A stretch of 64,000 nt of DNA. Origin: Streptosporangiales bacterium. GTDB taxonomy: Bacteria > Actinomycetota > Actinomycetes > Streptosporangiales > WHST01. This document shows positions 45,957 through 64,000 of this stretch, piece by piece. Positions within the stretch are counted from its first letter, which is position 1. Every line of letters begins with the position of its first letter. The position numbers were made by a program, and so were the translations under genes. Where the stretch lies: positions 1-64,000 of the forward strand of contig WHST01000005.1 of the NCBI GenBank assembly GCA_009379955.1, in the 5' to 3' direction. A model generated the notes under the pieces. The model was given only the letters and a program-made list of their open reading frames with translations. It was not told the DNA's origin and ran no database searches.

Positions 45957-46040
45957 CCGCCACCGCCTTCCCCGCGCCGCTCGGTGTCGGCGCGATACCT
46001 TACCCTCGAAGGCACGCATGTCACCGCGGGAGGGCCGACC

Positions 46041-47630
46041 GTGCCAGAGAGGGACTTCACCCCGTTCAGCTACCTGACCGCGCCCAACGCCGGCCTGTAC
46101 CGGAGCGTCATGACCGCGTTCGTCCAGGCCAAGCGCCGGTTCACGGTGCACATGAGGCCGGAGGACGTACACGAGTCGCTCGCGCACGCGGTCGAGTCCG
46201 CGAGCCTGAACGATGCCCTCGCCAGACTCGTCGACTGGGGCAACCTGCGCGCGGACGCCGACACCAGCCGGGTCACGAGCGTCGAGGACTTCCACCGCGC
46301 CCGCTACCTCTTCCAGCTCACCCGGCAGGGGGAGGCCGTCGAGCAGGCCGTCGAGACCTATGACGAGGTCCTCGGCAGGCGCGGCGCGCTCCAGGCCGTC
46401 GCCCTCGCCGACATCGTCACCCAGCTCCGCGCCCTCACCGAACTGGCCGAGCAGCCCGCGGCGGATCCCGCCAAGGTGCACCTACTGCTGCGCGGACTCG
46501 TCGACCGGTTCACCGACCTGGCCGGTAATGCGCAGGCGTTCATGGGTTCGCTGCAGCGCACCATCGACCTGCACGACGCGGACATCGACGCCTTCCACGC
46601 GTACAAGGATCGGCTGATCGACTATCTCGAACGCTTCATCAAGGACCTGGTCACCACGGGCTCGGAGATCGCGACGCTCGTCGCAGCACTGGAGGAGCGG
46701 GGCGTGGCCTGGCTCCTCGACATCGCAGCCGGCCGTGAGTCCGAGGACGCCGCGCCCGGTGCCGGCGAGGATGCCGCCGACGCGAAGCAGGTCGAGTTCG
46801 AACGCACTCGACGGCTCTGGGACGAGCGTTGGCACGGCTTCCGCGCATGGTTCGTCAGCGAGCCCGGGCACCCGAGCCAGGCGAAGCTCCTCCGCTCGCA
46901 GGCCCGCGCCGCCATCCCGCAGCTCCTCCAAGTGGTGGCTACCCTCAACGAGCGGCGCGCGGGTCGCTCCGACCGGTCCGCCGACTTCCGCAGCCTGGCC
47001 GGTTGGTTCGCCGAGGCTCCCGACGACGCCGACCTGCACCGGCTATGGCGGGCGGCGTTCGGGCTGTCCAGCGCACGTCACCTGACCGCCGACTCCGACG
47101 GCGCGGCGGAGCCGACGTCGGCGCAGACGGCCTGGGCCGACGCTCCCCCGCTCGAGATCAGTCCGCGGCTGCGCAGGACCGGCAGCTACGAACGACGCGG
47201 CAAGCCGAACCGCGTGGTAGACCGGTCCACGCAGCGCGCTCACCTGGCCGAGCTCGCGGCGCGCGAGGCCGCCGAGACCAGCGACGCTCGCGACGCCCTC
47301 GTCACGACGCACCCCACCAGGCTCACCGACGTCGGGCACCTCGACCCCGCCGCGTTCCGGCTCTTCCTCGGTCTGCTCGGCGACGCGCTCGCCGCGCAGA
47401 CCCCCGACAGCCTCGCCGCGCAGACCCTCGACAGCCTCGCCGCGCAGACCCCCGACAGCACTGCCATAGAGACCATCACGTCGGACGGCACCATGATGAT
47501 CCGGCTCACCCCACTCGACGACGGGCATCGCGCCGAGATTCACACTCCGCTCGGCACCTTCGGCGGGCCCGACCACCTCGTCGAGATCCTGGACCTTATC
47601 GCCAACGCCCGCCAGGAGCAGAGCGCATGA
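46041..47630 (+). CDS. jetA: Wadjet subunit JetA (DUF2397/TIGR02677-like, kleisin partner)
   Basis: A 529-residue protein of the DUF2397 family. The N-terminal pattern FSYLTAPNAGLYRSVMTAF, VDWGNLRADAD and FHRARYLFQLTRQGEAV is characteristic, followed by helical and coiled-coil parts. In Wadjet systems JetA is the kleisin-like subunit bridging SMC-like JetC dimers that extrude and cut circular DNA such as plasmids. A 24-bp unit occurs three times at 47391-47462, adding a repeated AAQTPDSL stretch near the C-terminus. The start is GTG 46041 with GGGAGG upstream. It opens the island; the decayed oxidoreductase is divergent. Confidence 0.88.
   Translation: MPERDFTPFSYLTAPNAGLYRSVMTAFVQAKRRFTVHMRPEDVHESLAHAVESASLNDALARLVDWGNLRADADTSRVTSVEDFHRARYLFQLTRQGEAVEQAVETYDEVLGRRGALQAVALADIVTQLRALTELAEQPAADPAKVHLLLRGLVDRFTDLAGNAQAFMGSLQRTIDLHDADIDAFHAYKDRLIDYLERFIKDLVTTGSEIATLVAALEERGVAWLLDIAAGRESEDAAPGAGEDAADAKQVEFERTRRLWDERWHGFRAWFVSEPGHPSQAKLLRSQARAAIPQLLQVVATLNERRAGRSDRSADFRSLAGWFAEAPDDADLHRLWRAAFGLSSARHLTADSDGAAEPTSAQTAWADAPPLEISPRLRRTGSYERRGKPNRVVDRSTQRAHLAELAAREAAETSDARDALVTTHPTRLTDVGHLDPAAFRLFLGLLGDALAAQTPDSLAAQTLDSLAAQTPDSTAIETITSDGTMMIRLTPLDDGHRAEIHTPLGTFGGPDHLVEILDLIANARQEQSA
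47391..47462. repeat. Three tandem 24-bp units in jetA
   Basis: Units lie at 47391-47414, 47415-47438 and 47439-47462 and differ at one to a few positions. In frame they encode three AAQT-DSL octapeptides. The region lies in a non-conserved linker, so copy number may vary. Confidence 0.9.
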
Positions 47631-47658
47631 CGCTCCCCGCCGCTCCGGAGGCCTGCTC

Positions 47659-48843
47659 GTGACCGCCCTGACCGACGCCCTCGACGCGACGAGAACCGAC
47701 GAACAGCGCAAGGCCGCGCGGGCACTGTTGCGACGTCCGCTGCTGCACGCCGGCGACGAGGCCTTTCCCCTCGTCCGTCGCTACGCGGCGGAGCTCCGCG
47801 AATGGTTCGACCGCAACACCGGGTGGCTGCTCGTCGTCGACAGCGAGGTGGCGAGGCTGGTCAAGAGCGCGGCGACGACACACGACCACACCTTCCCCGC
47901 GCGTGACGTGAAGTCCCGGGTTCCGTTCGGCCGGCGCAGGTACGTGCTCACGTGCCTGGCGCTGGCCGCGCTCGAACGCGCCGACTCCCAGGTGACGCTC
48001 GGCCGCCTCGCCGAGCAGGTGGTCCTGGAAGCCGGCGACCCGCGGTTGTCCGCCGCCGGGGTGACCTTCACTCTCGAAGGTCGTGACGAACGCGCCGACC
48101 TGGTGGCGGTCGTCCGCCTGCTCCTCGACCTTCGCGTGCTCAGCCGGGTTGCCGGTGACGAGGAGGCGTTCGTCAGGGACACCGGAGATGCGCTCTACGA
48201 CGTGCACCGCCGGGTGCTCGCCGCACTCCTCGCCACACCGCGGGGGCCGTCCACCGTCGACGACCAGGGCTTCGACGACCGACTGGCGGCCCTGACCCAC
48301 GAGATCCCGCCGACCACGGACGAGCTGCGCAACCAGCGCATCCGGCACCGGTTGACCCGACGTCTCCTCGACGAGCCGGTGCTCTACTACGCCGAGCTCG
48401 ACGACGCCGAACGCTCCTACCTCACCGGGCAACGCACCGCCATCACTGCCCGCATCACCGAGCTCACGGGCCTGGTCGCCGAGGTCCGTGCCGAGGGCAT
48501 CGCCATGGTCGATCCGTACGACGACCTCACCGACGTACGCATGCCGGAGAGCGGCACGGAGGGCCACGTCACGCTGCTGCTCGCCGAGCACCTCACTCGA
48601 CAGGAAGGCGCGGTACCCGTCGAGGACCTGCACGCGGAGGTACGCCGACTGGCCACCGAGCACAGGGGCTACTGGCGCCGAGCCGCGCGTGACCCGGGTG
48701 CCGAGGTCGACCTGACCACCTCCGCACTCGTCCGCCTCGAAGCGCTGCACCTGGTGAGCCGCACGGCGTCCACGGTCACGGCGCTTCCCGCGCTCGCCCG
48801 CTACAGCCTCGCCGAACCCACCTTCGCGGTGCATCTCACATGA
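47659..48843 (+). CDS. jetB: Wadjet subunit JetB (DUF2398/TIGR02678-like)
   Basis: A 394-residue protein of the DUF2398 family (RWxDE-type winged-helix repeats; GWLLVVDSEVARL, RYVLTCLALAALE, LDDAERSYLTGQR). JetB is the KITE-like companion of the SMC subunit. GTG 47659 has GGAGG 7 nt upstream and begins 28 bp after jetA. Same direction and spacing indicate one operon. Confidence 0.85.
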   Translation: MTALTDALDATRTDEQRKAARALLRRPLLHAGDEAFPLVRRYAAELREWFDRNTGWLLVVDSEVARLVKSAATTHDHTFPARDVKSRVPFGRRRYVLTCLALAALERADSQVTLGRLAEQVVLEAGDPRLSAAGVTFTLEGRDERADLVAVVRLLLDLRVLSRVAGDEEAFVRDTGDALYDVHRRVLAALLATPRGPSTVDDQGFDDRLAALTHEIPPTTDELRNQRIRHRLTRRLLDEPVLYYAELDDAERSYLTGQRTAITARITELTGLVAEVRAEGIAMVDPYDDLTDVRMPESGTEGHVTLLLAEHLTRQEGAVPVEDLHAEVRRLATEHRGYWRRAARDPGAEVDLTTSALVRLEALHLVSRTASTVTALPALARYSLAEPTFAVHLT

Positions 48844-48949
48844 CTGTGTATCCCGCCGCCCTCCTCCGCTCCGCTCCTCGCTCACGTGCGGTGGACGACC
48901 CACTGCGCCGTGGTGTTCTCGCTGCGATGCTCACTTCGGAGGACGGCTC

Positions 48950-51900
48950 ATGAACAGACAGCTGCCGACACCGGTCCTGGAACGCTGGCAACCACTGCGC
49001 GCCGGCCTCGTCGACCTCTTCTACTACGACAGCGAGGAGTTCTGGTTCCGCGACGGCCGCCTCCTCCTGCGCGGGAACAACGGCACCGGCAAGTCCAAGG
49101 TGCTCGCCCTCGTCCTCCCCTTCCTGCTCGACGGCGATCTCGCGCCGCACCGCGTCGAGCCCGACGCCGACTCACGTAAGCGGATGGAGTGGAACCTCCT
49201 GCTCGGCGGTGACCACCCCTACCCCGAACGCCTCGGCTACACCTGGCTCGAGTTCGGTCGCGTCGACGAGCATGGCGAAGCGCACTACCGCACGCTCGGC
49301 TGCGGGCTGAAGGCCGTCACCGGACGGGGAATCGCACGCCACTGGTTCTTCGTCACCAGCCGGCGTCCGGGTGCCGATCTCGCCCTCGTCGACGCCACGA
49401 GAACCGCGCTCGCCCGCGACAGGCTGGTCGACGCGCTCGCCGGCCACGGCACCGTCTACGACCGCGCGCGCGACTACCGCCGCGCCGTCGACGAAGCCCT
49501 CTTCGGATTCGGCGAGCAGCGCTACCGCGCGCTCGTCGACCTCCTCGTCCAGGTGCGCCAGCCGCAGCTGTCCAAGCGACCCAGCGAGAAGGCCCTGTCG
49601 GCAGCACTCACCGAGGCCCTCCCGCCCCTGGATCAGGCGGTCATCGCCGACGTCGCCGAGGCGTTCCGCAGCCTCGAGGAGGATCGCGACACGCTGCGGG
49701 CGATGACCGAGGCTCACCACGCCGCCACGTCGTTCCTCGGCCATTACCGCCGTTACGCGCGCGTCGCGTCACGGCGCAGGGCAGCGCTCCCGCGCAACGC
49801 GCAGTCCGACTACGAGCGGGTCAACCGCGACCTGGGCGCGGCCGAGGCCGAGTACGCGAGGGCCGACGGCGAGTTGTCCGCCGCCAAGGAGAAGCTCACC
49901 GAGCTGGCCGGCGTCGAGAGCCGACTGAAGGCACGCGATGCCGCCCTACGCGCGAGTCCGGAGATGCGCAGCGCTCGCGAGCTGGAACGCCTCGGAGAAG
50001 ACGCGCAGCGACTGGCCACGGAGGCACGGCGGATCGCCGCCGAACGAGACGACGCCACCGGACGGGTGGGCGATCTCGAGAAGCGGCACAACACCGCGAC
50101 CGCGAGGCGGTCCTCGGCAGGCGACAAGCTGACCGCGGCGCGACACTCGGCAGGAGACGCCGCCGCCACGGCGCACATCACCGATCAGCACGCCGACGGC
50201 ATCAACACTCCCCTCGACGCCGCACACGATCTGACGGCACTGCGCGGCGAGGCCGGTCGGCTGGTCGATCGTCAGCAACGCGCGATCGACCACGTGCAGA
50301 GCCTGCTCACGAAGGTCGACGACACCACGCGAGCGCTCGCCGACGCACGGCGCAGAGCGACGGACCTCGACACCGAGGCCGAAGATCTGGCCGTGCGTCG
50401 TACCGACGCCGAGCGCACCGTCACCGAGCGCGGCGCCGCCCTGGTCAGGGAGGTACGCGCACATCTCGACCGGGCGACCGAGCTGCGACTACCCGATCCC
50501 GCCAGCACGCTGGCCGAGCTGGAACTCTGGGTCGAGACACTCGACGGGACCAACCCCGCGACCGCGGCCGCGGGCAACGCCGGCCGGGTCGCGGCGGCCG
50601 AGCTGGCCACGCTGGCGGCCGAGCTGGAGAATCGGGAGCGAGCAGAGCGCGAGCGCGCCGCGGAACTGGCCGAAGAGATCGCACGCCTGGAGCGCGGCGA
50701 GGACACCGCGCCACCTCCGCCGCACACGAGAGACGCCACCGCCCGGCAGGGCCGCCCAGGCGCACCGCTGTGGCAGCTCGTGGACTTCGCCGAGCACGTC
50801 GACCCGGTCGACCGGGCGGGGCTCGAAGCCGCACTGGAGTCGGCGGGCATCCTCGACGCCTGGATGACGCCCCGGGGTGAGCTGCTGTCCGCCGACACCG
50901 ACGACGTCGTCGTTCGGGCAGGCACCCGGGCCGACGTCGCGCTCGACACCGTTCTGCGACCCGCGGTCGACCGGGTGGCACCGCAGACGAGCGGGATGTC
51001 GGACGACACCGTCGCGGCCGTGCTCGGGTCGATCGGTCTCGGCCGCGGCGGCGACACGTGGGTCGGCGTCGACGGTCGCTACCGGATCGGGGTGCTCGAA
51101 GGCACCTGGCACAAGCCGGCAGCGCAGTACATCGGCCGCGGTGCGCGCGAGGCGGCACGACGGTCCAGGCTCGCCAAGCTCCGCGGCACCCTCACCGAGG
51201 TCGAGGCCGAGCTCACCGGGATCACCGCGGCGCGCGCTCAGTTGAAGGAACGGGAGACCGTCCTCACGGCGGAGCAAGCGACCTTTCCCGGCGACCAGCC
51301 GGTGCATCAGGCGCACGCGGCAGTCGGCGCGCTCGCAGAGGAACGCACGCGCCTCACGACCCGGCAGGAGGTCGCCGCGCGGGAGCTCGTCGCCGCCACA
51401 GCCGCGAGCGAGGGAGCCCGGGCCGCTCACCTCGAAGGCGCGCGGGACACCGGGCTCCCCGCCGACACAGGCGAGCTCTCCGACGTCCGGCGGGGGTTGG
51501 GCGAGTACCGGATCGCGCTGGCCGGACTCTGGCCCGCGGCTGAGGGACTCGACGAGGCGACCCGGCATGCCGACCAGGTCGCCGGCGACCTCGGGAACGC
51601 CCGTACCGCACGCGACGAGCTGGCCATGCGCACGACCGAGACCGAGCACGCGGCCGAGGCCGCGCGCGAAACGCACGACGCGTTGCGTCAGACCGTCGGC
51701 GCCGCCGTCGCCGAGCTCGAACGACAGCTCGGCGAGGTCGCTGACCTGGTGCGCGACAACGAGAACGGCCGGAAGCGGGCGCAGACCGAGGCCGACGGCG
51801 CCCTCGAGGCTCGCGGCAAGGCAGTCGGCGAGCGCGAACGTCTCGGCGAACAACTGGTCGCCGTCTCCGCGCAGCGGACGACGGCCACCGAGTCGTTCCG

Positions 51901-53053
51901 GCGCTTCACCAACACCGGTCTCCTCGCCGTCGCGCTGCCAGACCTCGACATCCCCGATGCCGACGAGACGTGGGCACCCGACCCGACCGTGCGGCTCGCA
52001 CGTCGAGTCAACGACGAGCTCGCCGACACACCGGACGACGACAGCACCTGGGATCGCGCCCAGCATCGGGTCAACACCGAGCTCAAGACGCTGCACGACA
52101 CCCTGTCCCGGCACGGTAACAAGGCGGCGGCGGACCTGCGTGACGACGGCATCGTGGTGGAGGTCGAGTTCCGCGGCCGACCAACCTCGGTGCCCGACCT
52201 CGCCGAGGCACTGGCCGTCGAGGTCGACCAGCGCGAGCGGCTGCTCGACGAGCGTGAACGCGAGATCCTCGAGAACCACCTCGTCAACGAGGTCGCGAGC
52301 ACTCTGCAGGAGCTGATCTCCGTGGCCGAGAGCCAGGTCGCGGCCATGAACCGTGAGCTGGCCGAACGACCGACGAGCACGGGCATGCGCCTGCGCCTGC
52401 TCTGGAAGCCGCGCGACGACGGCCCGTCGGGACTCGCGGCGGCCCGCGAACGGCTGCTGCGGCAGACCGCCGACGCCTGGTCGGCGGACGACCGTGCCGC
52501 CGTCGGCGGCTTCCTGCAGGAGCAGATCACGCAGGCACGCTCGCGTGACGAGTCGGGCACCTGGCACGAGCACCTCACCGAGGCGCTCGACTACCGCGCC
52601 TGGAACCGGTTCGTCATCCAGCGGCACCAGAACGGCCAGTGGCGACCGGCGACCGGGCCTGCCTCGGGCGGCGAGCGTGTCCTCGCCGCCAGCGTCCCCC
52701 TCTTCGCGGCGGCGTCGGCGCACTACGCATCGGCCGACAACCCGCACGCGCCACGCCTCATCACCCTCGACGAGGCCTTCGCCGGGGTCGACGACCACGC
52801 CCGCGCGAAGTACCTCGGGCTGCTCGCCGCGTTCGACCTCGACGTCGTCATGACCAGCGAGCGCGAGTGGGGCTGCTACCCCGAGGTGCCCGGGCTGGCG
52901 ATATCGCACCTGGCCCGTAGGGAGGGCGTCTCGGCCGTGCTCGTCACCAACTGGCAGTGGGACGGCAGCGACCGACTGAAGGTCGAACGCCCCGTGTCGA
53001 CGCTCGCCACCGAAGACCGTCCTGAAGCCCTCTCGGAGGGGTCGTGGGACTGA
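48950..53053 (+). CDS. jetC: Wadjet subunit JetC, SMC-like ATPase (TIGR02680-like)
   Basis: A 1367-residue SMC/SbcC-like ATPase. The N-terminal ATP-binding head has Walker A GNNGTGKSK at residues ~42-50. Long coiled coils span ~270-620 and ~740-1200 around a hinge-like globular part near ~630-720 (LWQLVDFAEHVDPVDR, VGVDGRYRIGVLEG). The C-terminal head has signature SGGER (~1238) and Walker B LITLDEAFAGVDD (~1270), ending QWDGSDRLK. It hydrolyses ATP to extrude DNA loops. ATG 48950 with GGAGG. A 106-bp gap separates it from jetB, with nothing coding recognised in it. Confidence 0.9.
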   Translation: MNRQLPTPVLERWQPLRAGLVDLFYYDSEEFWFRDGRLLLRGNNGTGKSKVLALVLPFLLDGDLAPHRVEPDADSRKRMEWNLLLGGDHPYPERLGYTWLEFGRVDEHGEAHYRTLGCGLKAVTGRGIARHWFFVTSRRPGADLALVDATRTALARDRLVDALAGHGTVYDRARDYRRAVDEALFGFGEQRYRALVDLLVQVRQPQLSKRPSEKALSAALTEALPPLDQAVIADVAEAFRSLEEDRDTLRAMTEAHHAATSFLGHYRRYARVASRRRAALPRNAQSDYERVNRDLGAAEAEYARADGELSAAKEKLTELAGVESRLKARDAALRASPEMRSARELERLGEDAQRLATEARRIAAERDDATGRVGDLEKRHNTATARRSSAGDKLTAARHSAGDAAATAHITDQHADGINTPLDAAHDLTALRGEAGRLVDRQQRAIDHVQSLLTKVDDTTRALADARRRATDLDTEAEDLAVRRTDAERTVTERGAALVREVRAHLDRATELRLPDPASTLAELELWVETLDGTNPATAAAGNAGRVAAAELATLAAELENRERAERERAAELAEEIARLERGEDTAPPPPHTRDATARQGRPGAPLWQLVDFAEHVDPVDRAGLEAALESAGILDAWMTPRGELLSADTDDVVVRAGTRADVALDTVLRPAVDRVAPQTSGMSDDTVAAVLGSIGLGRGGDTWVGVDGRYRIGVLEGTWHKPAAQYIGRGAREAARRSRLAKLRGTLTEVEAELTGITAARAQLKERETVLTAEQATFPGDQPVHQAHAAVGALAEERTRLTTRQEVAARELVAATAASEGARAAHLEGARDTGLPADTGELSDVRRGLGEYRIALAGLWPAAEGLDEATRHADQVAGDLGNARTARDELAMRTTETEHAAEAARETHDALRQTVGAAVAELERQLGEVADLVRDNENGRKRAQTEADGALEARGKAVGERERLGEQLVAVSAQRTTATESFRRFTNTGLLAVALPDLDIPDADETWAPDPTVRLARRVNDELADTPDDDSTWDRAQHRVNTELKTLHDTLSRHGNKAAADLRDDGIVVEVEFRGRPTSVPDLAEALAVEVDQRERLLDEREREILENHLVNEVASTLQELISVAESQVAAMNRELAERPTSTGMRLRLLWKPRDDGPSGLAAARERLLRQTADAWSADDRAAVGGFLQEQITQARSRDESGTWHEHLTEALDYRAWNRFVIQRHQNGQWRPATGPASGGERVLAASVPLFAAASAHYASADNPHAPRLITLDEAFAGVDDHARAKYLGLLAAFDLDVVMTSEREWGCYPEVPGLAISHLARREGVSAVLVTNWQWDGSDRLKVERPVSTLATEDRPEALSEGSWD

Positions 53054-54276
53054 CCGACCACCAGCGGCTCGCTCGCCTGCTGGGTGGCGACGAGCTCGCG
53101 TGGCTGCTCACCAGGGTGCGCCGTCGGATGGAGCGTGGCGAGCCGCTCGACACCTCGGTCACCCTGTCCGGCGCGACCGCCGAGCAGCGAGCCGCCGCCC
53201 ACCGCCTGCTCGGGCGACGTCCCCGTCCGGGCGAGACGCTCACCGTCTCCCTTCCCGCGGTCGACCACGTCGTACGCCACTCGGGCGCGTGTCCCGACGG
53301 ACTCGCGGTCGCCGTCGTCGCCCTCACCGGCCCGGTGGCCGACCGCACCACCGAGAGAGCGGAGCTGGAGCGGTCGTGGCAGCGCGCGTTCACGCCGCTG
53401 GAGGCCGTCGTCGAGCGGCGGCCCGGGCTCGTGGCGTGGTACGAACGCATCCGCGCCACCGGACTCGTCCGCCGGTTGGCCGGCACACCCGAGTCCGCGG
53501 AGTCGTTGCTCGGCGACCTGGCCGAGGTGATCCGCCACCTCCCCGCGCACGGTGAACCCCTTGGACGGTTCGCCGCCCGGGTGGCGCGCAGCGCGCACGC
53601 GCTCGACGACGACCGTCCGCTCGCGACGCTGAGCCTCGGCGCCGCCCGAGCCCTGTCCGGCCTGTCGGCCGGCACCGGCGCCGAATGGCGCCGCGAGGTC
53701 TGGGCGTCCGTCGGTCTCCTACGCGACGAACTGTCGACGACGGTCCTCACCCTCGGCTTCCCCGGTGACGACGAGACCGCCACGGGCCGCGCCCTGGCTG
53801 CGTGGCACGGCACGGGCCAGCCGGTCGTGCTGACCCTCCGCCAGCTCGTCCGCGACCCTCCCCGGCTCGACGTGCCACGCGCGTCCGTCTGCGAGAACCC
53901 GGTCGTGGCGTCGACGGCCGCGCAAGAGCTCGGGCCGGCGTGCACGCCGCTGGTCTGCACCAGCGGACAGCCCGGCGCCGCCGTCATGCACCTGCTGCGC
54001 CTGCTCACCGCGGCGGGAGCCGGCCTCCGCTACCACGGCGACTTCGACTGGGGCGGCCTGCACATCGGCAACCTCCTGTTCGACCGGTTCCCGGTCCGCC
54101 CCTGGCGGTTCGAGACCACCGCTTACCGCTCTGCGAGGCTCCGCGGCAGGGAGCTGACCGGGAGCCCTGTGCAGGCACGCTGGGATCCGTCCCTCGGCGC
54201 GGCCATGACCGAGCTCGGCGACGCCGTCGAGGAGGAACACATCATCGACGACCTCCTCACCGATCTGTCCGACTGA
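53044..54276 (+). CDS. jetD: Wadjet subunit JetD, Toprim-like nuclease (DUF3323/DUF2399; TIGR02679-like)
   Basis: A 410-residue protein. The N-terminal helical DUF3323-like region is followed by a DUF2399/Toprim-type module (VCENPVVASTAA, CTSGQPGAA, LRYHGDFDWGGLHIGN), which supplies the metal-dependent DNA-cleavage residues. In Wadjet, JetD cuts the extruded circular DNA. GTG 53044 lies 10 bp inside jetC, with GGAGGGG before it. It closes the jetABCD unit. The DUF2397/2398/2399 set corresponds to the class usually called type III. Confidence 0.85.
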   Translation: MGLTDHQRLARLLGGDELAWLLTRVRRRMERGEPLDTSVTLSGATAEQRAAAHRLLGRRPRPGETLTVSLPAVDHVVRHSGACPDGLAVAVVALTGPVADRTTERAELERSWQRAFTPLEAVVERRPGLVAWYERIRATGLVRRLAGTPESAESLLGDLAEVIRHLPAHGEPLGRFAARVARSAHALDDDRPLATLSLGAARALSGLSAGTGAEWRREVWASVGLLRDELSTTVLTLGFPGDDETATGRALAAWHGTGQPVVLTLRQLVRDPPRLDVPRASVCENPVVASTAAQELGPACTPLVCTSGQPGAAVMHLLRLLTAAGAGLRYHGDFDWGGLHIGNLLFDRFPVRPWRFETTAYRSARLRGRELTGSPVQARWDPSLGAAMTELGDAVEEEHIIDDLLTDLSD

Positions 54277-54408
54277 CGCACACCGCTCAACCGGCTACCG
54301 TGCGTTCGCGCCAAAGCCACTCTTACCTGATGTCACGGACCGGGTGACGCTCCGGGCTGTTCGTCGGAACGCCGTTCTGGCCAGCGCGAGGGAGCGCATC
54401 GTCATTCC

Positions 54409-57400
54409 ATGGTGCAGGCGGAACTGGCTGTCGGGGCGCTGGTCACCGTCCGGGCCGAGCGGTGGGTGGTCAGCGACGTCGACGCCGGCACCGACAACAC
54501 GGTCGTCGGGTTGCGCAGTGTCGAGGGCGGCCGGTACGACGACACGCTCGAGGTGATCTGGGAGGTCGAGACGGGCAGCCAGGTACTCCCGGCCGGGTCA
54601 TTGCCCGAGGTCACAGAGGACGGATTCGACCCGCCCGCCCGGCTCGCGGCGTTCCTCGACGCCGTGCGCTGGTCCGCCGTGACCTCCGCCGACGTCAAGA
54701 CCCTGCAGGCACCGTTCCGGTCCGGCGTCGCGATCGAGGACTACCAGCTCGAGCCGGTGGCCCGTGCCGTCGACGCACCCCGCGTCAACCTGCTGCTCGC
54801 CGACGACGTGGGCCTCGGCAAGACGATCGAAGCCGGCCTGGTCGCCCAGGAGCTGCTGCTGCGACACCGGGCCAGGCGGATCATGGTCGTCTGCCCCGCC
54901 GGCCTCACCGTGAAGTGGCAGGACGAGATGGCCGAGAAGTTCGGCCTCGACTTCACCGTGATCGACACCGAACGGTGCGCGGTCGTCCGCCGCGAGCACG
55001 GTAGTGCGGCCAACCCGTTCAAGGTGCACCCGCTTGCCATCGTCAGCCTGCCGTGGTTGCGTGGGCCGAAGGCGCAGCGCCTCCTCGACGAGGTGCTGCC
55101 GCCGGGAGGCCCGTCGTATCCGCGTACCTTCGACCTGCTGATCCTCGACGAGGCACACCACGTCGCGCCGGCCGCACCGAAGCAGGTGTACGCCGTCGAC
55201 TCCCAGCAGACCAAGCTGATCCGCCGTCTCGCGCCCCACTTCACCCACCGGCTCTTCCTGTCGGCTACACCGCACAACGGCTACCAGGCCTCGTTCACCG
55301 CGTTGCTGGAGATCCTCGACGACCAGCGGTTCGCCCGCGGCGTGGAGCCGGACCGGAGAGCGGTCGCCGAGACGGTCGTGCGACGACTCAAGCGCGACAT
55401 CGCAGGTGCGGACGGCACACGGCGGTTCGTCGAGCGCGTCGCCACCGCGATCCGGGTCGAGTATCCCGAGGACGAGCGGGAGATCCACGGCCTGCTCGAG
55501 GAGTTCGCACGGCTGCGTCGGGCGCGGCTCCGGTCGAACAGGGGCAGGAAGGCGACCGACCTCGTCACGCTGCTGCTGAAGAAGCGGTTGTTCTCCAGCC
55601 CCGCCGCGTTCGCGCACACCGTCGGCGTCTACCTGCGCACGCTCCAGGCGCGCGACCGCGACGATCCCGACGTTGGCGAGCCGCCGGACTGGATGGACGA
55701 CTTCTTCGACGACACCGCAACCTACGCCGACGAGCCGCTCGCCGAGGCCGAGGACGACGCACTGAACCGCGCGGGTGCGCTGCAGCCCACTCCGGAGCAG
55801 CAGGAGCTGGCACTGCTGCGCCGGATGGAGCAGTGGGCGCTCGCGCACGAGGCACGTCCGGATGCGAAGGCCCGCGAACTGGTCGCCTACCTCAAGGCCG
55901 TATGCCTCCCCGACGGGGGGCTCTGGACGAACGAGCGGGTCGTGGTGTTCACCGAGTACCGCGACACCCAGCGCTGGCTGGTCGAGCTGCTGCGGCAGGA
56001 AGGTCTGGGTGGCGCCGCCGTCGAGCAGCTGCACGGCCAGCTCGCGACGGCGGACCGCGAGCGGCTCCGGCTCGCCTTCCAGCGCCACCCCGCGGAACAC
56101 CCGGTACGCATCCTGGTGGCGACCGACGCCGCGAGCGAGGGGATCGACCTGCAGAACCACTGCCACCGGCTGGTGAACTACGACATCCCGTTCAACCCCA
56201 ACAAGCTCGAGCAACGGATCGGCCGCATCGACCGGTACGGCCAGCGCGAGGCTCCCGACATCCGCCACTTCGTCGGCTCGGGTTTCGGACGCGCGGTCGA
56301 CCGTTACGAGGCCGACCTGGAGTTCCTGGCCCGGGTGGCCGACAAGGTGACCCGGATGGAAGCCGACCTCGGCGCGGTCAACGCCGTCCTGTCCGACAAG
56401 GTGCAGCGGCGAATGCTCGGGCAGCTCGTCGACGACGGCCTCGACGACCCAGCCTCGACGTCGGCGGCGGCACGCGATCTGCCTGCGGAGAAGGCCGTCG
56501 GGGAGCAGGTACGCCGACTCCGCGACACCGTCGACCAGACTGTCGCCGAGCTCGGCATCACGCCGCACGCCGTGCGGCGGGTGGTCGACACGGCACTCGA
56601 CCTCGCGAGGCAGCAACCGCTACGGCCCCACCTGTCCGACCAGCGCCTCGTCGACGGGATGTTCGAGGTGCCGACGCTCACCGGCTCGTGGGTACGGGCC
56701 TCGGCCGGGCTCACCGAGAAGCTGGGGCGGCGCGACGCACCGCCCCGCCAGCTCCCGGTGACCTTCGACGCCGGAGTAGCCAGGGGCCATGACGACGTCG
56801 TGCTCGCTCACCTGAACCATCCGTTGGTCGCGATGTCGACCGACCTCCTCGCCGATGCCGTCTCGAACGTCGACATCGACCTGCACCGGGTGACGGCGGT
56901 CGTCAGCGACGATCCCGACCTCGACGACGTGCTGGTCGGCGCGTACTCGCGGTTCGTGCTGGTGGGCGCGGACGGCGTTCGGCTGCACGAGCAGGTGCTG
57001 CGCGCCGGCGGGTGGGCGCCGGAGACGGGACGGTTCCGCCGGCTGGAGAACCTCGGCCGGCTCGGCGAGTTCCTCGACCAGGCGCTCGCCACCGGCGCCG
57101 AGGCGTCACCCGCGGTCCGCGCTCGACTGGCGGAGCGCTGGCCGCGCGTCAGGGACGGCGTGCTCGGCGCCGTCGAGTGGCGGGCGCGGACCTTGCGCGA
57201 GCAGCTCGACCGCAAGCTCGCCCAGCGCGAGCAGGACGAGCGGGACCGGTTGACCGGCAACCTCGACCAGTTCACGAGGACCCTGACCGCCGCGCTCGCC
57301 GAACCCGAGGACGAGCAGCAACCGGTGCTGCTCAGCGAGATCGACATCAAGGGTGCCGAGGAGCTCGCGCAGTACCGCCGCGACCGGCAGTCCTGGCGAG

Positions 57401-57534
57401 AACGCCTCGACCAGCTCGAGGGAGAACGCGACAGGGAGCTGAACCTGATCCGGGCTCGGTACGCGCGGCAGGAGCCGCACCAGTTCCCGGTCGCCGTGGT
57501 GTTCGTCGTGCCGAGACGGGAGGCGACCCGATGA
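54409..57534 (+). CDS. drmD: DISARM SNF2-like helicase DrmD
   Basis: A 1041-residue SF2/SNF2-type translocase. Motif I is LLADDVGLGKTIEAG (~133), motif II ILDEAHH (~244), motif III LSATPHNGY (~284), and the C-terminal helicase half includes VATDAASEGIDLQNHCH and QRIGRIDRYGQ (~570-612). A charged coiled-coil end follows. Position just before an adenine methylase gene is the class 1 DISARM order (drmD-drmMI-drmA-drmB-drmC). A plain SNF2 protein of a BREX-like cluster was considered; no brx genes are present. ATG 54409, 132 bp after jetD. Confidence 0.82.
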   Translation: MVQAELAVGALVTVRAERWVVSDVDAGTDNTVVGLRSVEGGRYDDTLEVIWEVETGSQVLPAGSLPEVTEDGFDPPARLAAFLDAVRWSAVTSADVKTLQAPFRSGVAIEDYQLEPVARAVDAPRVNLLLADDVGLGKTIEAGLVAQELLLRHRARRIMVVCPAGLTVKWQDEMAEKFGLDFTVIDTERCAVVRREHGSAANPFKVHPLAIVSLPWLRGPKAQRLLDEVLPPGGPSYPRTFDLLILDEAHHVAPAAPKQVYAVDSQQTKLIRRLAPHFTHRLFLSATPHNGYQASFTALLEILDDQRFARGVEPDRRAVAETVVRRLKRDIAGADGTRRFVERVATAIRVEYPEDEREIHGLLEEFARLRRARLRSNRGRKATDLVTLLLKKRLFSSPAAFAHTVGVYLRTLQARDRDDPDVGEPPDWMDDFFDDTATYADEPLAEAEDDALNRAGALQPTPEQQELALLRRMEQWALAHEARPDAKARELVAYLKAVCLPDGGLWTNERVVVFTEYRDTQRWLVELLRQEGLGGAAVEQLHGQLATADRERLRLAFQRHPAEHPVRILVATDAASEGIDLQNHCHRLVNYDIPFNPNKLEQRIGRIDRYGQREAPDIRHFVGSGFGRAVDRYEADLEFLARVADKVTRMEADLGAVNAVLSDKVQRRMLGQLVDDGLDDPASTSAAARDLPAEKAVGEQVRRLRDTVDQTVAELGITPHAVRRVVDTALDLARQQPLRPHLSDQRLVDGMFEVPTLTGSWVRASAGLTEKLGRRDAPPRQLPVTFDAGVARGHDDVVLAHLNHPLVAMSTDLLADAVSNVDIDLHRVTAVVSDDPDLDDVLVGAYSRFVLVGADGVRLHEQVLRAGGWAPETGRFRRLENLGRLGEFLDQALATGAEASPAVRARLAERWPRVRDGVLGAVEWRARTLREQLDRKLAQREQDERDRLTGNLDQFTRTLTAALAEPEDEQQPVLLSEIDIKGAEELAQYRRDRQSWRERLDQLEGERDRELNLIRARYARQEPHQFPVAVVFVVPRREATR

Positions 57535-60500
57535 CGGCGCAACTCCAGCCATACCGCACACCGGGGCCACCTCCCGTGGACGGCGCGCAGCAGCACCGCG
57601 ACTGGCTCGATCTCGTCGAGGTGACGGGTCCGTTCCTGTCGCTACCTGTGCTGCGGTCGGCGTGGCCAGGCCTCGACCCGCTCGACAAGGCGGTCCGCGA
57701 CCGGCTGCGGCTCGAGCACGGGGACTGGCTGAACGATCAGGCGACCAAGCAACGTGCCTGGATCGAGTACCTGCTGTGCGAGCTGCTCGGCTGGGGCGCC
57801 GACGTGCTCTTCCGAGACGAGACCGAGACACTCGCCGCACTGAGTCACGAGAGCGCCGAGCACGCCGTGACGGTCTTGCCCGACTTCGCGGTCGTGGAGC
57901 CGGGCGAGGACGTCAAGCCGGCAACCACCCGGCTGGTCGGCCTGATCTGCCCGCCGGCCTCGCATCCGACGGCGGCCAACACCGGGGCGGGGCGCACCGA
58001 CGACTGGCCGGCGAGCCCGGCCGACCGGCTGGTGCAGCTCTGCCGGCACCACGGCGTGCCGCTTGGGCTGGCGACCGGCGGCCGGTTCTGGACCCTGGTA
58101 TGGGCGCCGCGGGCGACCGAGCGGCGGCCCGCGGTGACGACCACGGCGACCTTCGACGCCGTCTCCTGGCCCGAGTCGGCCGAGCGCAACGTCGTACGCG
58201 CGTTCGTGTCGATGCTGTGCCGGACGCGGTTCTTCTCCGTGCCCGACGACGAGACGCTCCCCGCGCTGCTCGAAGCGAGCCTGGGCTCGCAGGAGGAGAT
58301 CACCGAGGCGCTCGGCGTACAGGTGCGGCAGGCGGTCGAGCTGCTGATGGCGGCGATCGGCCGCGCCGACCTGCGCGCGCAGGAGCGCGGCGAACCCGGC
58401 CTGCGTGGCATCGACGCCCACGACGTGTACCGCGGCGCGGTGTCGACCATGATGCGCGTCGTCTTCCTGCTGTTCGCCGAAGACCGCGGCCTGCTGCCGT
58501 CCGACAACGACCTCTACGCCGGCGCGTACTCGGCGAGCGGCCTGTACGCCCGGCTCCACAGTCGAGCCGTCGAAGGCAGCGAGGATGACCTGGAGCACTC
58601 GACCGCCGCGTGGCACCGGCTGCTTGCCTTGTTCCGGGCTGTGCACGACGGTGTCGACCACCCGCGGCTGCGGATGCACGCGCACGACGGGCCGATCTTC
58701 GACCCCGAGTCGTACGACTGGCTGCCGCGCGCGATCGACGACCGCACGGTGCTGCACATGATGCGCGCCGTGCAGCACGTCGAGATCGGGCGCGGTCGCT
58801 CGCGCGAGCTGCGCACGGTCGGCTTCGGTGCGCTCGACGTCGAGGAGATCGGCTACGTCTACGAGGGCCTGCTCTCCTTCGAGGGCTACCGCGCCGAGGA
58901 GCTGATCGTCGGGCTCGTCGGCGCTCCGGGTCATGAGGCAGAGGTGGCGTTGACCGAGCTGGAACGGCTGGCGGCCGCACATCCCGGTGTGCCGGCGCTC
59001 GCGGCCGCTCTCGCCGAGCGGTACAAGGACGCGAAGATCGGTTCGGCCAAGGCGCTGGAGAAGCGGTTGGCGCCGCTCGGGGAGCAGGACCGGGAGGAGG
59101 CTCGCAGGCTGCTACTCGCGGTCACCGGCGGAGACTACCCGCTCGCCGAGCGGATGCTCCCGTTCCACGGCCTGATCCGGCACGACCTGCGCGGGCAACC
59201 GCTGGTGATCCCGTCCGGCGCGCTGTACGTCACTGAATCGCCGCTGCGCAAGAACTCCGGCACCCACTACACGCCACGTCCACTGGCCGAGGAGGTCGTG
59301 GAGCACGCACTGCAACCCTTGGTCTACTCGCCGGGTCCACTGCAGACGGCGGACGAGTCGCAGTGGGTGCTGAGGCCGTCGACCGAGATCCTCGCGCTCA
59401 AGGTCGCCGACATCGCGATGGGCTCGGCCGCATTCCTGGTCGCGGCTGCGCGCTACCTCGGCGACAAGCTCGTCATGGCGTGGTCACGGCAGGGTGTTGC
59501 GCCCGCGCAGAGCCGGGTCGTCGCCGGCGACAAGCGTCGCGACGCCGAGGAGGACCCGGTGGTGGTCGAGGCCAGGCGGAAGGTGATCGAGCACTGCCTG
59601 TACGGCGTCGACATCAACCCGATGGCCGTCGAGATGGCCAAGCTCTCCCTCTGGCTGGTCTCGATGGACGGCCGGCGCCCTTTCACCTTCCTCGACGACC
59701 GCCTCGTCGCCGGCGACTCGTTGCTCGGCATCACGTCCCTGGAGCAGCTGGAGTACATGCACCTCGACCCCGCCAAGGGCCGCGAGCTGCATGAGACCGA
59801 CCTGCTCGGCTGGACCTCAGGCGTGCGCAGCCTCGTGGCCGACGTCGCCGAGCACCGCCGCCAGATCGGCGAGATCGAGCTAGGCGACGACCCGATGGCG
59901 GCACTCGACCGCAAGCGCGAGCTGCTGGCCGAGGCGCGCAAGAAGGCAGAACCACTACGCCTGTTCGCCGACCTCACCGTCGGCGCCGCCCTCGCCGGGC
60001 ATGCCAAGCGAACGGGCTCCCGCGAGCCGAACGCCCGCGCCGACATCGACGCCGAGCGCGGCACGAAGCGGGCTGACCTCTCCCACCGGGCCGCCGAGCT
60101 TGCCGACCTGGTGAACAGAGACGTCCGCGCCTGGGAGGCGCGGGAACACGCCGACACCTGGCTGGCCACCGACCAGGTCCCCGGCTCCTTCGCCCGCGAG
60201 CCGCTCCACTGGCCCCTGGTCTTCCCCGAGGTCTTCGCCCAGGATGGATTCGACGCCGTCATTGGCAACCCACCCTTCCTGGGCGGACAGAAGCTCACCC
60301 GCTCACTGGGGACGGCCTATCGTGAGCACCTGGTGCTGGCGCTGGCAGCTGAGACTCGAGGCAGCGCCGACTTGGTCGCCTATTTCGCGTTGCGGGCACA
60401 CGAGCTGTTGAACCCATCGGGGCAGACCGGGCTGCTGGCGACGAACACGCTGGCACAGGGCGATACCCGAGAGACCGGGCTGGACCAACTCGTCGCGAAT

Positions 60501-61697
60501 GGGGCGGCGATCAGGCGGGCGATCAAAAGTAGACCCTGGCCGTCCCGGTCGGCGGTCCTGGAGTACTGCGCTGTCTGGACCAGCGGAGTGGAGCTTGACA
60601 AGGCCGCAGTACGGATCGCTGACGACGCCGTGGTCAAGCAGATCACGCCATCACTCGAGGCAGGGTCGAGGGTCGTCGGTTCACCGAACCGCTTAGTCTC
60701 CAACGCAGAACGGTCATTTCAAGGTTCCAACGTGCTCGGCCTCGGCTTCACCATGACTCCCGACGAGGCAGCCGCGTTGGTTGAGAAGGACCCCCGCAAC
60801 AAGGAGGTTCTCTTCCCCTACCTCAACGGCCAAGACCTCAACTCCAGACCCGACTGCTCGGGCAGCCGCTTGGTGATCAACTTTCGCGACTGGCCCGAGG
60901 AGAGAGCGAAGGGGTACCCCGATTGCTACGACAGAGTCATCCGCTTGGTGAAGCCTGAACGCGCGGAGAATCGGTACAGCAAGTCCGCCAGGCAGCGTTG
61001 GTGGCTCTATGAACGCGCTCGCCCGGAACTCTACGGTGCCATTGACGCGCTGGAGAAGGTCGTCGTGATCACGCTCGTAAGCAGGACCGTGACACCGGTG
61101 ATTGTGCCAACCGGGCAGGTGTTTTCCCACATGCTCGGGGTGTTCGCGACCGATGACACGGCGATGCTGGCGATGCTGTCAAGTGCACCGCATTACTGGT
61201 GGGCAGTTGCGCGGGCCTCGTCGATGAAGGCGGACCTTCGCTACACCCCCTCCGACGTGTTCGAGACGTTCCCGCTGCCCGAGCTCACGCAAGGGATGCG
61301 GGAGCTGGGCGACCGGTTGGACACATTCCGGCGGGAGGTCATGCTGGGGCGGGACCTCGGGTTGACAAAGACGTACAACCTGGTGTTCGACCCCGGTTGC
61401 ACGGACCCCGACATCGTCGAAATGCGGCAGATCCACCGGGCCATCGATGTCGCGACCGTCCGAGCGTACGGCTGGGACGATCTTGTAGAGCAGCTCGACC
61501 ACGGGTTCCATCCGGCGGGGCGGGATCTGCGCTACACGGTCGGGCCGGCCGCGAAGCAGGAGATCCTGGACCGGCTGCTCGAACTGAACCACGAACGCTA
61601 CGCCGCTGAGGTCGCCGCCGGCCTGCACGACAAGAAGAAGCCGAAGCAGAAGAGAGCGACCCCGCAGGCGTCCGAGGGTCAGGACGGCCTGTTCTGA
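57531..61697 (+). CDS. drmMI: DISARM N6-adenine DNA methyltransferase DrmMI
   Basis: A 1388-residue adenine methyltransferase. N-terminal ~600 residues are helical with no clear nuclease motif. The SAM-binding motif is DIAMGSAAFLVAAARYL (~626), with CLYGVDINPMAVEMAKLSL, and the catalytic NPPF (IGNPPFLGGQ) is at ~911. The last ~450 residues are a probable target-recognition region. In class 1 DISARM this methylase marks host DNA. The start ATG 57531 overlaps the drmD stop by 4 bases. Frames opening at 57012 are inside drmD and not real. The nucleotide make-up of ~60500-61200 is more AT-rich than its flanks. Confidence 0.85.
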   Translation: MTAQLQPYRTPGPPPVDGAQQHRDWLDLVEVTGPFLSLPVLRSAWPGLDPLDKAVRDRLRLEHGDWLNDQATKQRAWIEYLLCELLGWGADVLFRDETETLAALSHESAEHAVTVLPDFAVVEPGEDVKPATTRLVGLICPPASHPTAANTGAGRTDDWPASPADRLVQLCRHHGVPLGLATGGRFWTLVWAPRATERRPAVTTTATFDAVSWPESAERNVVRAFVSMLCRTRFFSVPDDETLPALLEASLGSQEEITEALGVQVRQAVELLMAAIGRADLRAQERGEPGLRGIDAHDVYRGAVSTMMRVVFLLFAEDRGLLPSDNDLYAGAYSASGLYARLHSRAVEGSEDDLEHSTAAWHRLLALFRAVHDGVDHPRLRMHAHDGPIFDPESYDWLPRAIDDRTVLHMMRAVQHVEIGRGRSRELRTVGFGALDVEEIGYVYEGLLSFEGYRAEELIVGLVGAPGHEAEVALTELERLAAAHPGVPALAAALAERYKDAKIGSAKALEKRLAPLGEQDREEARRLLLAVTGGDYPLAERMLPFHGLIRHDLRGQPLVIPSGALYVTESPLRKNSGTHYTPRPLAEEVVEHALQPLVYSPGPLQTADESQWVLRPSTEILALKVADIAMGSAAFLVAAARYLGDKLVMAWSRQGVAPAQSRVVAGDKRRDAEEDPVVVEARRKVIEHCLYGVDINPMAVEMAKLSLWLVSMDGRRPFTFLDDRLVAGDSLLGITSLEQLEYMHLDPAKGRELHETDLLGWTSGVRSLVADVAEHRRQIGEIELGDDPMAALDRKRELLAEARKKAEPLRLFADLTVGAALAGHAKRTGSREPNARADIDAERGTKRADLSHRAAELADLVNRDVRAWEAREHADTWLATDQVPGSFAREPLHWPLVFPEVFAQDGFDAVIGNPPFLGGQKLTRSLGTAYREHLVLALAAETRGSADLVAYFALRAHELLNPSGQTGLLATNTLAQGDTRETGLDQLVANGAAIRRAIKSRPWPSRSAVLEYCAVWTSGVELDKAAVRIADDAVVKQITPSLEAGSRVVGSPNRLVSNAERSFQGSNVLGLGFTMTPDEAAALVEKDPRNKEVLFPYLNGQDLNSRPDCSGSRLVINFRDWPEERAKGYPDCYDRVIRLVKPERAENRYSKSARQRWWLYERARPELYGAIDALEKVVVITLVSRTVTPVIVPTGQVFSHMLGVFATDDTAMLAMLSSAPHYWWAVARASSMKADLRYTPSDVFETFPLPELTQGMRELGDRLDTFRREVMLGRDLGLTKTYNLVFDPGCTDPDIVEMRQIHRAIDVATVRAYGWDDLVEQLDHGFHPAGRDLRYTVGPAAKQEILDRLLELNHERYAAEVAAGLHDKKKPKQKRATPQASEGQDGLF

Positions 61698-61720
61698 TGG
61701 CCCCTGCCGAAACGTCGCCC

Positions 61721-62161
61721 TCAGGCTTCCTGCACCACCCAGCGGAGCGGCTGCAACCGGCTCACCTGACTGGCCATACCGAGGAACTTGAAGTCGAGAG
61801 TGGCGATGTCGGCGATCCCGAGACGTTCTGCCATCGCGATGATCGTGGCGTCGACGTAACCGAGCGGTGCGGCCGCCAAGTGGACGGCGAGCTCGGTCGC
61901 ACGCTGGCGGTCCTCCCCTACCGGATTGACGATCTCGACCTCGCTGCCGGTCGCCGTCATCGATTCGAGGAAGCGCGCCTCCAGCACTGGGCCATGTCGT
62001 ACATGGTTGCGGAGGAAGTTGCAGGTCTCACCCAGGACCGGTTCGGGCACAAGGAGCCGGCCGGTCCAGGACCGCAGGAGGCGAAGGCAGCTCTCGTGAT
62101 GGGCATCCCGGACGTTGTAGCTCGCGATGAGAAGCCCCGAATCACAGAGCAGCTGGATCAC
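61721..62161 (-). CDS. PIN-domain toxin (VapC-like)
   Basis: A 146-residue PIN-fold ribonuclease. The conserved acidic set is D7 (LLCDSGLLIA), E45 (PVLGETCNFL), D104 (YVDATIIAMAERLG) and D118/D123 (IADIATLDFKF). VapC-like toxins cut tRNA or other RNA. Its start overlaps the antitoxin stop by 4 bases (ATGA). It lies opposite to the defence genes, between drmMI (24 bp away) and drmA. Confidence 0.8.
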   Translation of the reverse strand: MIQLLCDSGLLIASYNVRDAHHESCLRLLRSWTGRLLVPEPVLGETCNFLRNHVRHGPVLEARFLESMTATGSEVEIVNPVGEDRQRATELAVHLAAAPLGYVDATIIAMAERLGIADIATLDFKFLGMASQVSRLQPLRWVVQEA

Positions 62162-62331
62162 GCGCTGTGCCGCACCGATTCGATCGCCTCGACGATGTCA
62201 TGGTCGCGCCTGGAATCGGCCATGATCTCGCGGTATCTGCTGGACAGCTCCGGCTCGTCGACGTCGGCAAGGCCAACCCATGGGAAGCGCTCCCGCAGGT
62301 CCTCCGACTCGGTCGAGCTGTCAGCAGCCAT
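62158..62331 (-). CDS. Antitoxin partner of the PIN toxin
   Basis: A 57-residue, mainly acidic small protein (STESEDLRERFPWVGL, VDEPELSSRYREIMAD). ATG 62331 is chosen; a TTG at 62340 adds three residues. Size, charge and the coupled overlap with the PIN gene fit a VapB-like antitoxin. No DNA-binding motif is clearly visible. It faces away from drmA across a 59-bp divergent gap. Confidence 0.65.
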   Translation of the reverse strand: MAADSSTESEDLRERFPWVGLADVDEPELSSRYREIMADSRRDHDIVEAIESVRHSA

Positions 62332-62390
62332 GGCTATCAATGTAGCCGAAGATCACGACAGCACCCAGCGTCACGGGAGGAGGATCGCTG

Positions 62391-64000
62391 ATGTCCGCAC
62401 CTGACCAGGAACAGGTACACGAGCTGGACCGGCCGCAGCGGCTCGCCAGCCCCGGGTCTTACCAGGTGCGGGACGAGCTGGCGGAGCTGGTCGCGCGTGA
62501 CCTGCTCGGTCCGTGGGACGGTCCGGCCGAGCGGTTCGCGCCCAAGGCCGACGGGCCGCGCGAGCGTTATCTCGTGGGTGCACTCGGGCCGCGCGACGCG
62601 CTGGCCGGCGCGCCGGAGGAGGCGCAGGCGTCGGTCGACAACGGGTCCGGGGTGTTCGGCGACGGCGCGGACGCGGAGCTCCCCGAGGTCACCCCGGCGA
62701 GCCTCGGCCGGCTGTGGGCGTCGTCGATGGGACTGTCCTGCACCGTGCCGACCGAGATCACGCGCCTGCGGGTGACCGCCGAATGGGGGCGGTACGCCCA
62801 CGAACAGGTCGAGGACGAGCAGGGAGTGGCGCGCACGGTCTGGGCCCGCGAGCAGGTCGAGCAGGTGCGCGAGATCGCGCTCGACGTCGACCCGACGACG
62901 GTCGTGCCGCTGGACGACAGCGCCGCCGGGGCGGGCGTGCGCCTGGTCGTGAACGTGCGCCTGCGCGGTTCCCGCCGGGTGGTCGAGCTCGCGCTCGTCA
63001 ACGCCCAGCAGGAACCCGAGTCCCAGCGCGACACGGCCTGGCTGTTCCAGACCCGGCTCGCCGTCACCGCGACGGACGGCGAGGCCGCCGTGTTCGCGCC
63101 CGTCGATGATCAGGCTGACGCCGGCCAGGCCGTGACGCACAATGCCGAGGACGCTCACCTGCGGCTGCTCTACCGGCACGAGCTGCGCTACGCCAACGGC
63201 CGCAACGTCGCCGTGCACCCGCACGTGCGCCACGGCGAACGCAATGCGCACCGGGTCGAGACCACCTGGCTGCCGACCTACGACGTGCCTGCCACGGTCG
63301 CACCGTCGGGCGACGGCACGCCGCTCGCCGGTGTGGAGCTGTCGATGGACGCCCTCGCCGACGCTGACGCCGACACATTGCGGACGGGACTGCTGCCACT
63401 GGTCGACGGGTACGCCACCTGGCTCGACGCGCGCGAGGAGGAGCTGCCCACCCTGCCGGAGGTGTTGCGGCCCGCCGGCGTCGACGCGGTCGCCAAGGCA
63501 CGCCGGGCGGCGGACCGCATCCGGACCGGGGTCGAGCTGCTCACCGACCCGACCGCCCACCGGCACGACGAGGCGCTGCGCGCGTTCCGGTTCGCCAACG
63601 AGGCGATGGCCGCGCAGCGGCGCCACACCGAGATCGCCCAGCGCCGCGACCGCGAAGGGATGAGCTACGCCGACGCCAAGAGCGCGGTCGACGCCAAGGG
63701 CACAGCCCTCGCCTCCTGGCGGCCGTTCCAGCTCGCCTTCGTGCTGCTCAACCTGCCGTCGCTGACCGACCCGACGCACTCCGAGCGTGCTGCCGACGCG
63801 AACGCCACCGTCGACCTGCTGTTCTTCCCCACCGGCGGCGGCAAGACCGAGGCGTACCTCGGGCTCACCGCGTACACCTTCGCGATCCGCCGGCTGCAGG
63901 GCACCGTCGGCGAGGGCGCGGACGTGCGCAGCGGCGAGGCCGGCGTCGCGGTGCTGATGCGCTACACCCTGCGGCTGCTCACGGCCCAGCAGTTCCAGCG
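62391..64000 (+). CDS. drmA: DISARM helicase DrmA, 5' part only
   Basis: The frame is open from ATG 62391 (GGGAGGAGG upstream) to the window end, at least 536 codons. The N-terminal ~470 residues are a large helical and beta accessory part (VARDLLGPWDGPAERF, LGRLWASSMGLSC, EDAHLRLLYRHELRYANGRN, AFRFANEAMAAQRR). The Walker A motif of the SF2 helicase, LLFFPTGGGKTEAYLGL, begins near residue 477. The family (DrmA, with a downstream DUF1998-bearing DrmB partner) is the signature DISARM helicase. The C-terminal half and drmB/drmC, if present, lie beyond 64000. Confidence 0.82.
   Translation, partial: MSAPDQEQVHELDRPQRLASPGSYQVRDELAELVARDLLGPWDGPAERFAPKADGPRERYLVGALGPRDALAGAPEEAQASVDNGSGVFGDGADAELPEVTPASLGRLWASSMGLSCTVPTEITRLRVTAEWGRYAHEQVEDEQGVARTVWAREQVEQVREIALDVDPTTVVPLDDSAAGAGVRLVVNVRLRGSRRVVELALVNAQQEPESQRDTAWLFQTRLAVTATDGEAAVFAPVDDQADAGQAVTHNAEDAHLRLLYRHELRYANGRNVAVHPHVRHGERNAHRVETTWLPTYDVPATVAPSGDGTPLAGVELSMDALADADADTLRTGLLPLVDGYATWLDAREEELPTLPEVLRPAGVDAVAKARRAADRIRTGVELLTDPTAHRHDEALRAFRFANEAMAAQRRHTEIAQRRDREGMSYADAKSAVDAKGTALASWRPFQLAFVLLNLPSLTDPTHSERAADANATVDLLFFPTGGGKTEAYLGLTAYTFAIRRLQGTVGEGADVRSGEAGVAVLMRYTLRLLTAQQFQ

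Follow-up and report, generated by a model that had tools for sequence, protein, structure and literature searches.

Where two immune systems lie head to tail on one strand, do they form a single unit, or are they neighbours in a defence island? The question is raised by the window, the whole 64,000-bp stretch of DNA that was analysed, which opens a contig of 101.6 kb from an actinomycete draft genome (6.6 Mb, 225 contigs). From position 46041 onwards it carries Wadjet genes followed by DISARM genes. The defence island to which they belong spans about 46-74.4 kb of the contig, and metabolic genes resume after 74443.

Gene content of the island

The genes at 46041-54276 are a complete type II Wadjet, jetABCD:

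46041..47630, plus strand: jetA, kleisin-like subunit, type II Wadjet (DUF2397, TIGR02677), GTG start; PADLOC JetA2 E 1.5e-193, TIGR02677 E 4.7e-169
47659..48843, plus strand: jetB, type II Wadjet (DUF2398, TIGR02678); PADLOC JetB2 E 3.4e-143
48950..53053, plus strand: jetC, SMC ATPase (TIGR02680); PADLOC JetC2 1468 bits, Walker A and SGGE motifs
53044..54276, plus strand: jetD, toprim-type nuclease (DUF3323 and DUF2399, TIGR02679); PADLOC JetD2 E 2.1e-139, Pfam match and motif

All four match the type II PADLOC models JetA2, JetB2, JetC2 and JetD2 (E from 2e-139 to 0) and exceed the cut-offs of the NCBIfam families TIGR02677, TIGR02678, TIGR02680 and TIGR02679, and Pfam finds DUF2397, DUF2398 and DUF3323 with DUF2399 on the jet genes. 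The complete set of the DUF2397/2398/SMC/DUF2399 class claimed in the initial annotation is confirmed by these matches. As read in the sequence, JetC has the Walker A motif GNNGTGKS at residue 42 and the SGGE signature at residue 1239, and the toprim motif HGDFDWGG of JetD is intact. The four genes agree with known type II Wadjet in number, order, families and motifs, and depart from it in their neighbourhood only. Just before jetA (window 45058-45990, minus strand), broken reading frames appear by eye to be the remnant of an FMN-dependent hydroxy-acid oxidase, possibly a scar of the island's insertion.

DISARM follows on the same strand at exactly the distance first noted, and continues beyond the window end at 64000:

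54277..54408, plus strand: gap of 132 bp between jetD end and drmD start
54409..57534, plus strand: drmD, SNF2-like helicase of class 1 DISARM; PADLOC DrmD 1385 bits, NF038317 1360 bits (cut-off 610)
57531..61697, plus strand: drmMI, adenine methyltransferase; PADLOC DrmMI 1704 bits, NPPF motif at 913
61721..62161, minus strand: PIN-domain toxin inside DISARM, antisense; PF01850 E 9.5e-12, gene call
62158..62331, minus strand: 57-aa partner, presumed antitoxin; gene call
62391..66134, plus strand, past the window end: drmA helicase; PADLOC DrmA, NF038325 1385 bits (above cut-off)
contig 66131-68026, plus strand, outside the window: drmB; PADLOC DrmB, NF038324 700 bits (above cut-off)
contig about 68023-68769, plus strand, outside the window: drmC; PADLOC DrmC, NF038319 226 bits (above cut-off)
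contig 68815-69494 (L002:8815-9494), same strand as drmC and directly after it: second PIN pair, a FitA-like ribbon-helix-helix protein and a PIN-toxin-like protein
contig 70789-72342 (within L002:10789-14443): Ser/Thr kinase, best PADLOC match PD-T4-6
contig 72344-74443: UvrD-like helicase, starting 1 bp after the Ser/Thr kinase

The matches of drmD, drmMI and drmA to PADLOC have E values of 1e-70 or far better, and those of drmMI and of drmD, which also matches NF038317, place the two genes in class 1 DISARM. The drmB and drmC genes, which the initial annotation proposed to look for past 64000, are present at contig 66131-68769. Under the PADLOC rule, by which a class 1 call means that DrmA, DrmB, DrmC, DrmD and DrmMI are all present (PMC9252829), the locus is a complete class 1 DISARM with its five core genes. 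DrmE was not among the best PADLOC matches listed for the main island genes scanned. Family scores are very high for all nine jet and drm genes, and catalytic motifs are present where they were checked.

The start codon of drmMI (ATG) and the drmD stop share a 4-nt overlap, also seen in relatives (e.g., L068), and drmB and drmC each overlap the preceding gene by 4 nt. Between drmMI and drmA there is a break of 693 bp; the two genes overlap at the same joint in several relatives. The locus agrees with known class 1 DISARM in its five core genes, their order and their common strand, and differs in this 693-bp break and in the antisense PIN pair that the break contains. The class 1 loci annotated on plasmids from Rhodococcus, Nocardia and Deinococcus have the same gene order but are uninterrupted at this joint. 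ARMADA (Bell et al. 2025, PMC12458937) has a YprA-like helicase, a BrxHII-like helicase and a PglX-like methylase in common with class 1 DISARM, but its DUF1998 module is within the helicase, whereas DrmA and DrmB here are separate genes, the DISARM condition. One or both of the Ser/Thr kinase and UvrD helicase genes found 3' of drmC have relatives near other DISARM loci, where their position varies (e.g., L080, L100, L104 and G652).

Wadjet and DISARM in related genomes

We compared the window with the loci of the 80 closest DrmD relatives (52-74% identity). In this set, a few members of which start at a contig end near drmD, jetABCD was directly upstream of drmD in 0/80, and the closest relatives, at 72-74% identity, have no adjacent Wadjet. 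A conserved adjacent Wadjet-DISARM unit across relatives is therefore not supported. Within the same order, a strong DrmMI match was found in 73 of 347 genomes and a strong JetA match in 227, and both systems occur together in 54 genomes as compared to 47.8 expected (p = 0.10). A class-level draw of 395 genomes gave a stronger association (21 versus 7.3 expected), which we do not read as linkage because the draw pools lineages rich in both systems with lineages poor in both.

At least four pairs lie within about 30 kb of each other (the window, G652, G675 and G264), as compared to 0.5 expected at random placement, which fits island clustering; the distances to Wadjet are lower bounds, with JetA places taken among the matches listed. 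Wadjet and DISARM are divergent in G652, with a UvrD helicase between them, and convergent in G675. In G264 they are on the same strand but separated by a methylase-like gene and two kinases, and drmABC is absent nearby. The jet proteins are 29-40% identical to those of the window in G652 and G264 and 53-58% in G675. The same-strand order with Wadjet before DISARM is seen in a few Streptomyces (G264, L115 and, decayed, L109), with about 5 kb between the systems. No plasmid record carried both (10 records with DrmD and 19 with JetD, none in common), and viral contigs contained no JetD relative and three distant DrmD relatives. An empty insertion site was not found in two same-genus genomes, where the flanking genes were too divergent.

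Completeness, gene order and family membership of both systems are established by the matches above. We infer that Wadjet and DISARM here probably had independent origins, because the arrangement is unconserved and the neighbours are discordant. It is highly probable that the locus consists of two independent, complete and known immune systems in one defence island, adjacent by chance assembly, together with a mobile PIN pair in the drmMI-drmA joint. Both systems are of known kinds and the window is a new instance assembled by defence-island mixing, and a clean, complete actinomycete example of the two. The initial annotation had described a compact back-to-back arrangement worth testing for co-expression; both systems are indeed complete and head to tail, but a joint, co-expressed unit is not supported: the arrangement is not conserved and co-occurrence within the order is near chance.

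Of the alternatives, the one that survives best, though improbable, is that jetABCD and drmD-drmMI are one transcript and the systems act jointly, through shared timing or because one exposes the substrate of the other. The shared strand and the 132-bp gap agree with it. A simple consensus scan, a weak tool in high-G+C actinomycetes, found neither a terminator-like nor a promoter-like (sigma70-like) site in 54277-54408; no unusual RNA fold was found there, and the 250 bp upstream of 80 drmD genes yielded no motif or promoter element shared with the window. Read-through from jetD, and hence co-transcription, is possible in this strain. Joint action would also give useful combined cover: the literature describes Wadjet as anti-plasmid (PMC10586767), while for class 1 DISARM a preprint cited in PMC9142583 reports activity against phages and also against conjugation. 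Against joint transcription, the adjacency is absent from the 80 close DrmD loci, the other nearby pairs have divergent, convergent or interrupted layouts, and the antisense pair interrupts DISARM, which is thus probably not one transcript here. Because the antisense pair at 61721-62331 splits DISARM, drmABC probably has its own transcription start, and a single transcript from jet to drmC is therefore unlikely. The comparison removes a tempting, unsupported idea, that of a joint Wadjet-DISARM machine. As for the proposed division of labour, "Wadjet for plasmids, DISARM for phages" is too simple, since the reported targets of the two systems overlap, those of class 1 DISARM including conjugation.

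The antisense PIN pair

The pair at 61721-62331 had been overlooked in the initial annotation. The arrangement is VapBC-like: the PIN toxin is preceded by a small gene that overlaps it by 4 nt, and this partner, for which Pfam gave no family, is kept with the toxin in G538, G514 and G664. A plus-strand ORF of 235 aa at 61697-62404 was considered as an extra DISARM gene and rejected; it is a shadow of the antisense pair, with the coding signal on the other strand.

Perhaps the pair is a guard built into DISARM that halts or kills the cell once DISARM is missing or under attack. G538, from another family, has the pair in the same slot and orientation (63% identity for the toxin and 55% for the partner), and Pseudonocardia asaccharolytica (L089) has a remnant of it in the same slot, as a guard would predict. 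However, equally similar pairs (61% identity for the partner in G514) reside beside genes that look non-defensive in G514 and G664, neither of which had a drmMI match in the order search, and most DISARM loci have no PIN pair. The pair is thus not DISARM-specific, and we regard a guard role as unlikely, somewhat less probable even than joint transcription. Its presence beside non-defence genes in genomes lacking a drmMI match indicates that the pair is a mobile passenger, one that has entered the drmMI-drmA slot, or been retained there, more than once.

Least probable is a misjoin of the two systems in assembly, for the draft state (225 contigs) and the 3.8% estimated contamination are set against a G+C that stays at 0.70-0.74 on both sides of the jet-drmD junction, a codon-position composition that is alike in jet and drm genes, and the position of both systems deep within the 101.6-kb contig.

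With two independent systems and a passenger pair as the preferred reading, the functions can be sketched by analogy with studied relatives. JetABC, with its SMC, kleisin and KITE-like parts, would extrude DNA and on small closed circles would activate the JetD nuclease, leading to a cut; linear DNA would be spared, as would circles of more than about 100 kb (PMC10586767). DrmMI would methylate host DNA, and DrmAB with DrmD would recognise and block unmethylated incoming DNA, the activator of DrmAB being unmethylated DNA that carries a 5' single-stranded overhang, while methylation represses it (PMC9142583). The head-to-tail placement would have arisen by chance assembly, as is typical of defence islands, and does not imply a joint machine, and the mobile antisense pair would have settled in a joint that often bears inserts in this order.

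The drmMI-drmA slot

The most useful by-product of the analysis is the drmMI-drmA slot itself. Within the order, we measured the distance between drmMI and drmA wherever the two share a contig and a strand, which gave 69 pairs, and removal of five second, tandem drmMI copies left 64 loci. The two genes are adjacent in 31/64 and separated by an insert of 0.5 to about 22 kb in 33/64. Half of the inserts read (15/30) contain an XRE regulator, which is usually accompanied by a DUF397 protein and often by a histidine-kinase-like ATPase protein. XRE-DUF397 pairs are very common actinomycete regulators (PMC10364602, PMC6262351), so their count in the slot may merely reflect abundance. An AAA ATPase of one kind is present in 5 of the 30, in four of them with a small partner alongside; in the one example scanned, PADLOC identified the two as HEC-01A and HEC-01B.

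Defence genes embedded in other immune loci have already been described (Payne et al. 2024, doi 10.1101/2024.01.29.577857, as cited in PMC12988326 and PMC12629846). As far as these citing papers present it, "guilt-by-embedding" and the resulting Hma-embedded candidates (HEC) likewise concern extra genes, HEC-01A and HEC-01B included, within a multi-gene immune locus; here, the host locus is instead a class 1 DISARM and the insert of the window is an opposite-strand toxin-antitoxin pair. A literature search that stopped short of bioRxiv and the original DISARM paper returned no paper describing the drmMI-drmA slot. An embedding preference for this joint over others is likely rather than proven, the distances having been taken at the drmMI-drmA joint only. 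On balance we favour the view that in actinomycete class 1 DISARM this joint preferentially takes up other genes (defence, toxin-antitoxin, regulator), that the system is often split by variable cargo into two halves with separate expression, and that a scan of the slot would reveal more defence genes. The cargo is a short list of candidate defence genes for testing.

We also considered drmD-drmMI without a nearby drmA as a two-gene system and rejected it; DrmA is present in all such genomes (41/41), in several of them 6-35 kb downstream on the same contig. DISARM loci split at the drmMI-drmA slot may be called incomplete by annotation tools that require tight gene clustering. In Streptomyces and near relatives (L109, L110, L112-L126, L128, L138, L143, L145 and G264), there is a conserved block in which one or two kinase genes are followed by drmD-drmMI. 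Upstream of it, the loci read often have a methylase-like HTH gene in the opposite orientation, and where the distance was measured drmABC is several to more than 30 kb downstream.

Five genomes (G647, G619, G609, G641 and G546) have two tandem drmMI copies upstream of one drmA, which suggests doubled modification modules with one effector part in common. One locus (L163, in G357) has within the drmMI-drmA slot a recombinase-like gene and a partial copy of drmMI in inverted orientation, an insert that looks like a switchable methylase specificity segment.
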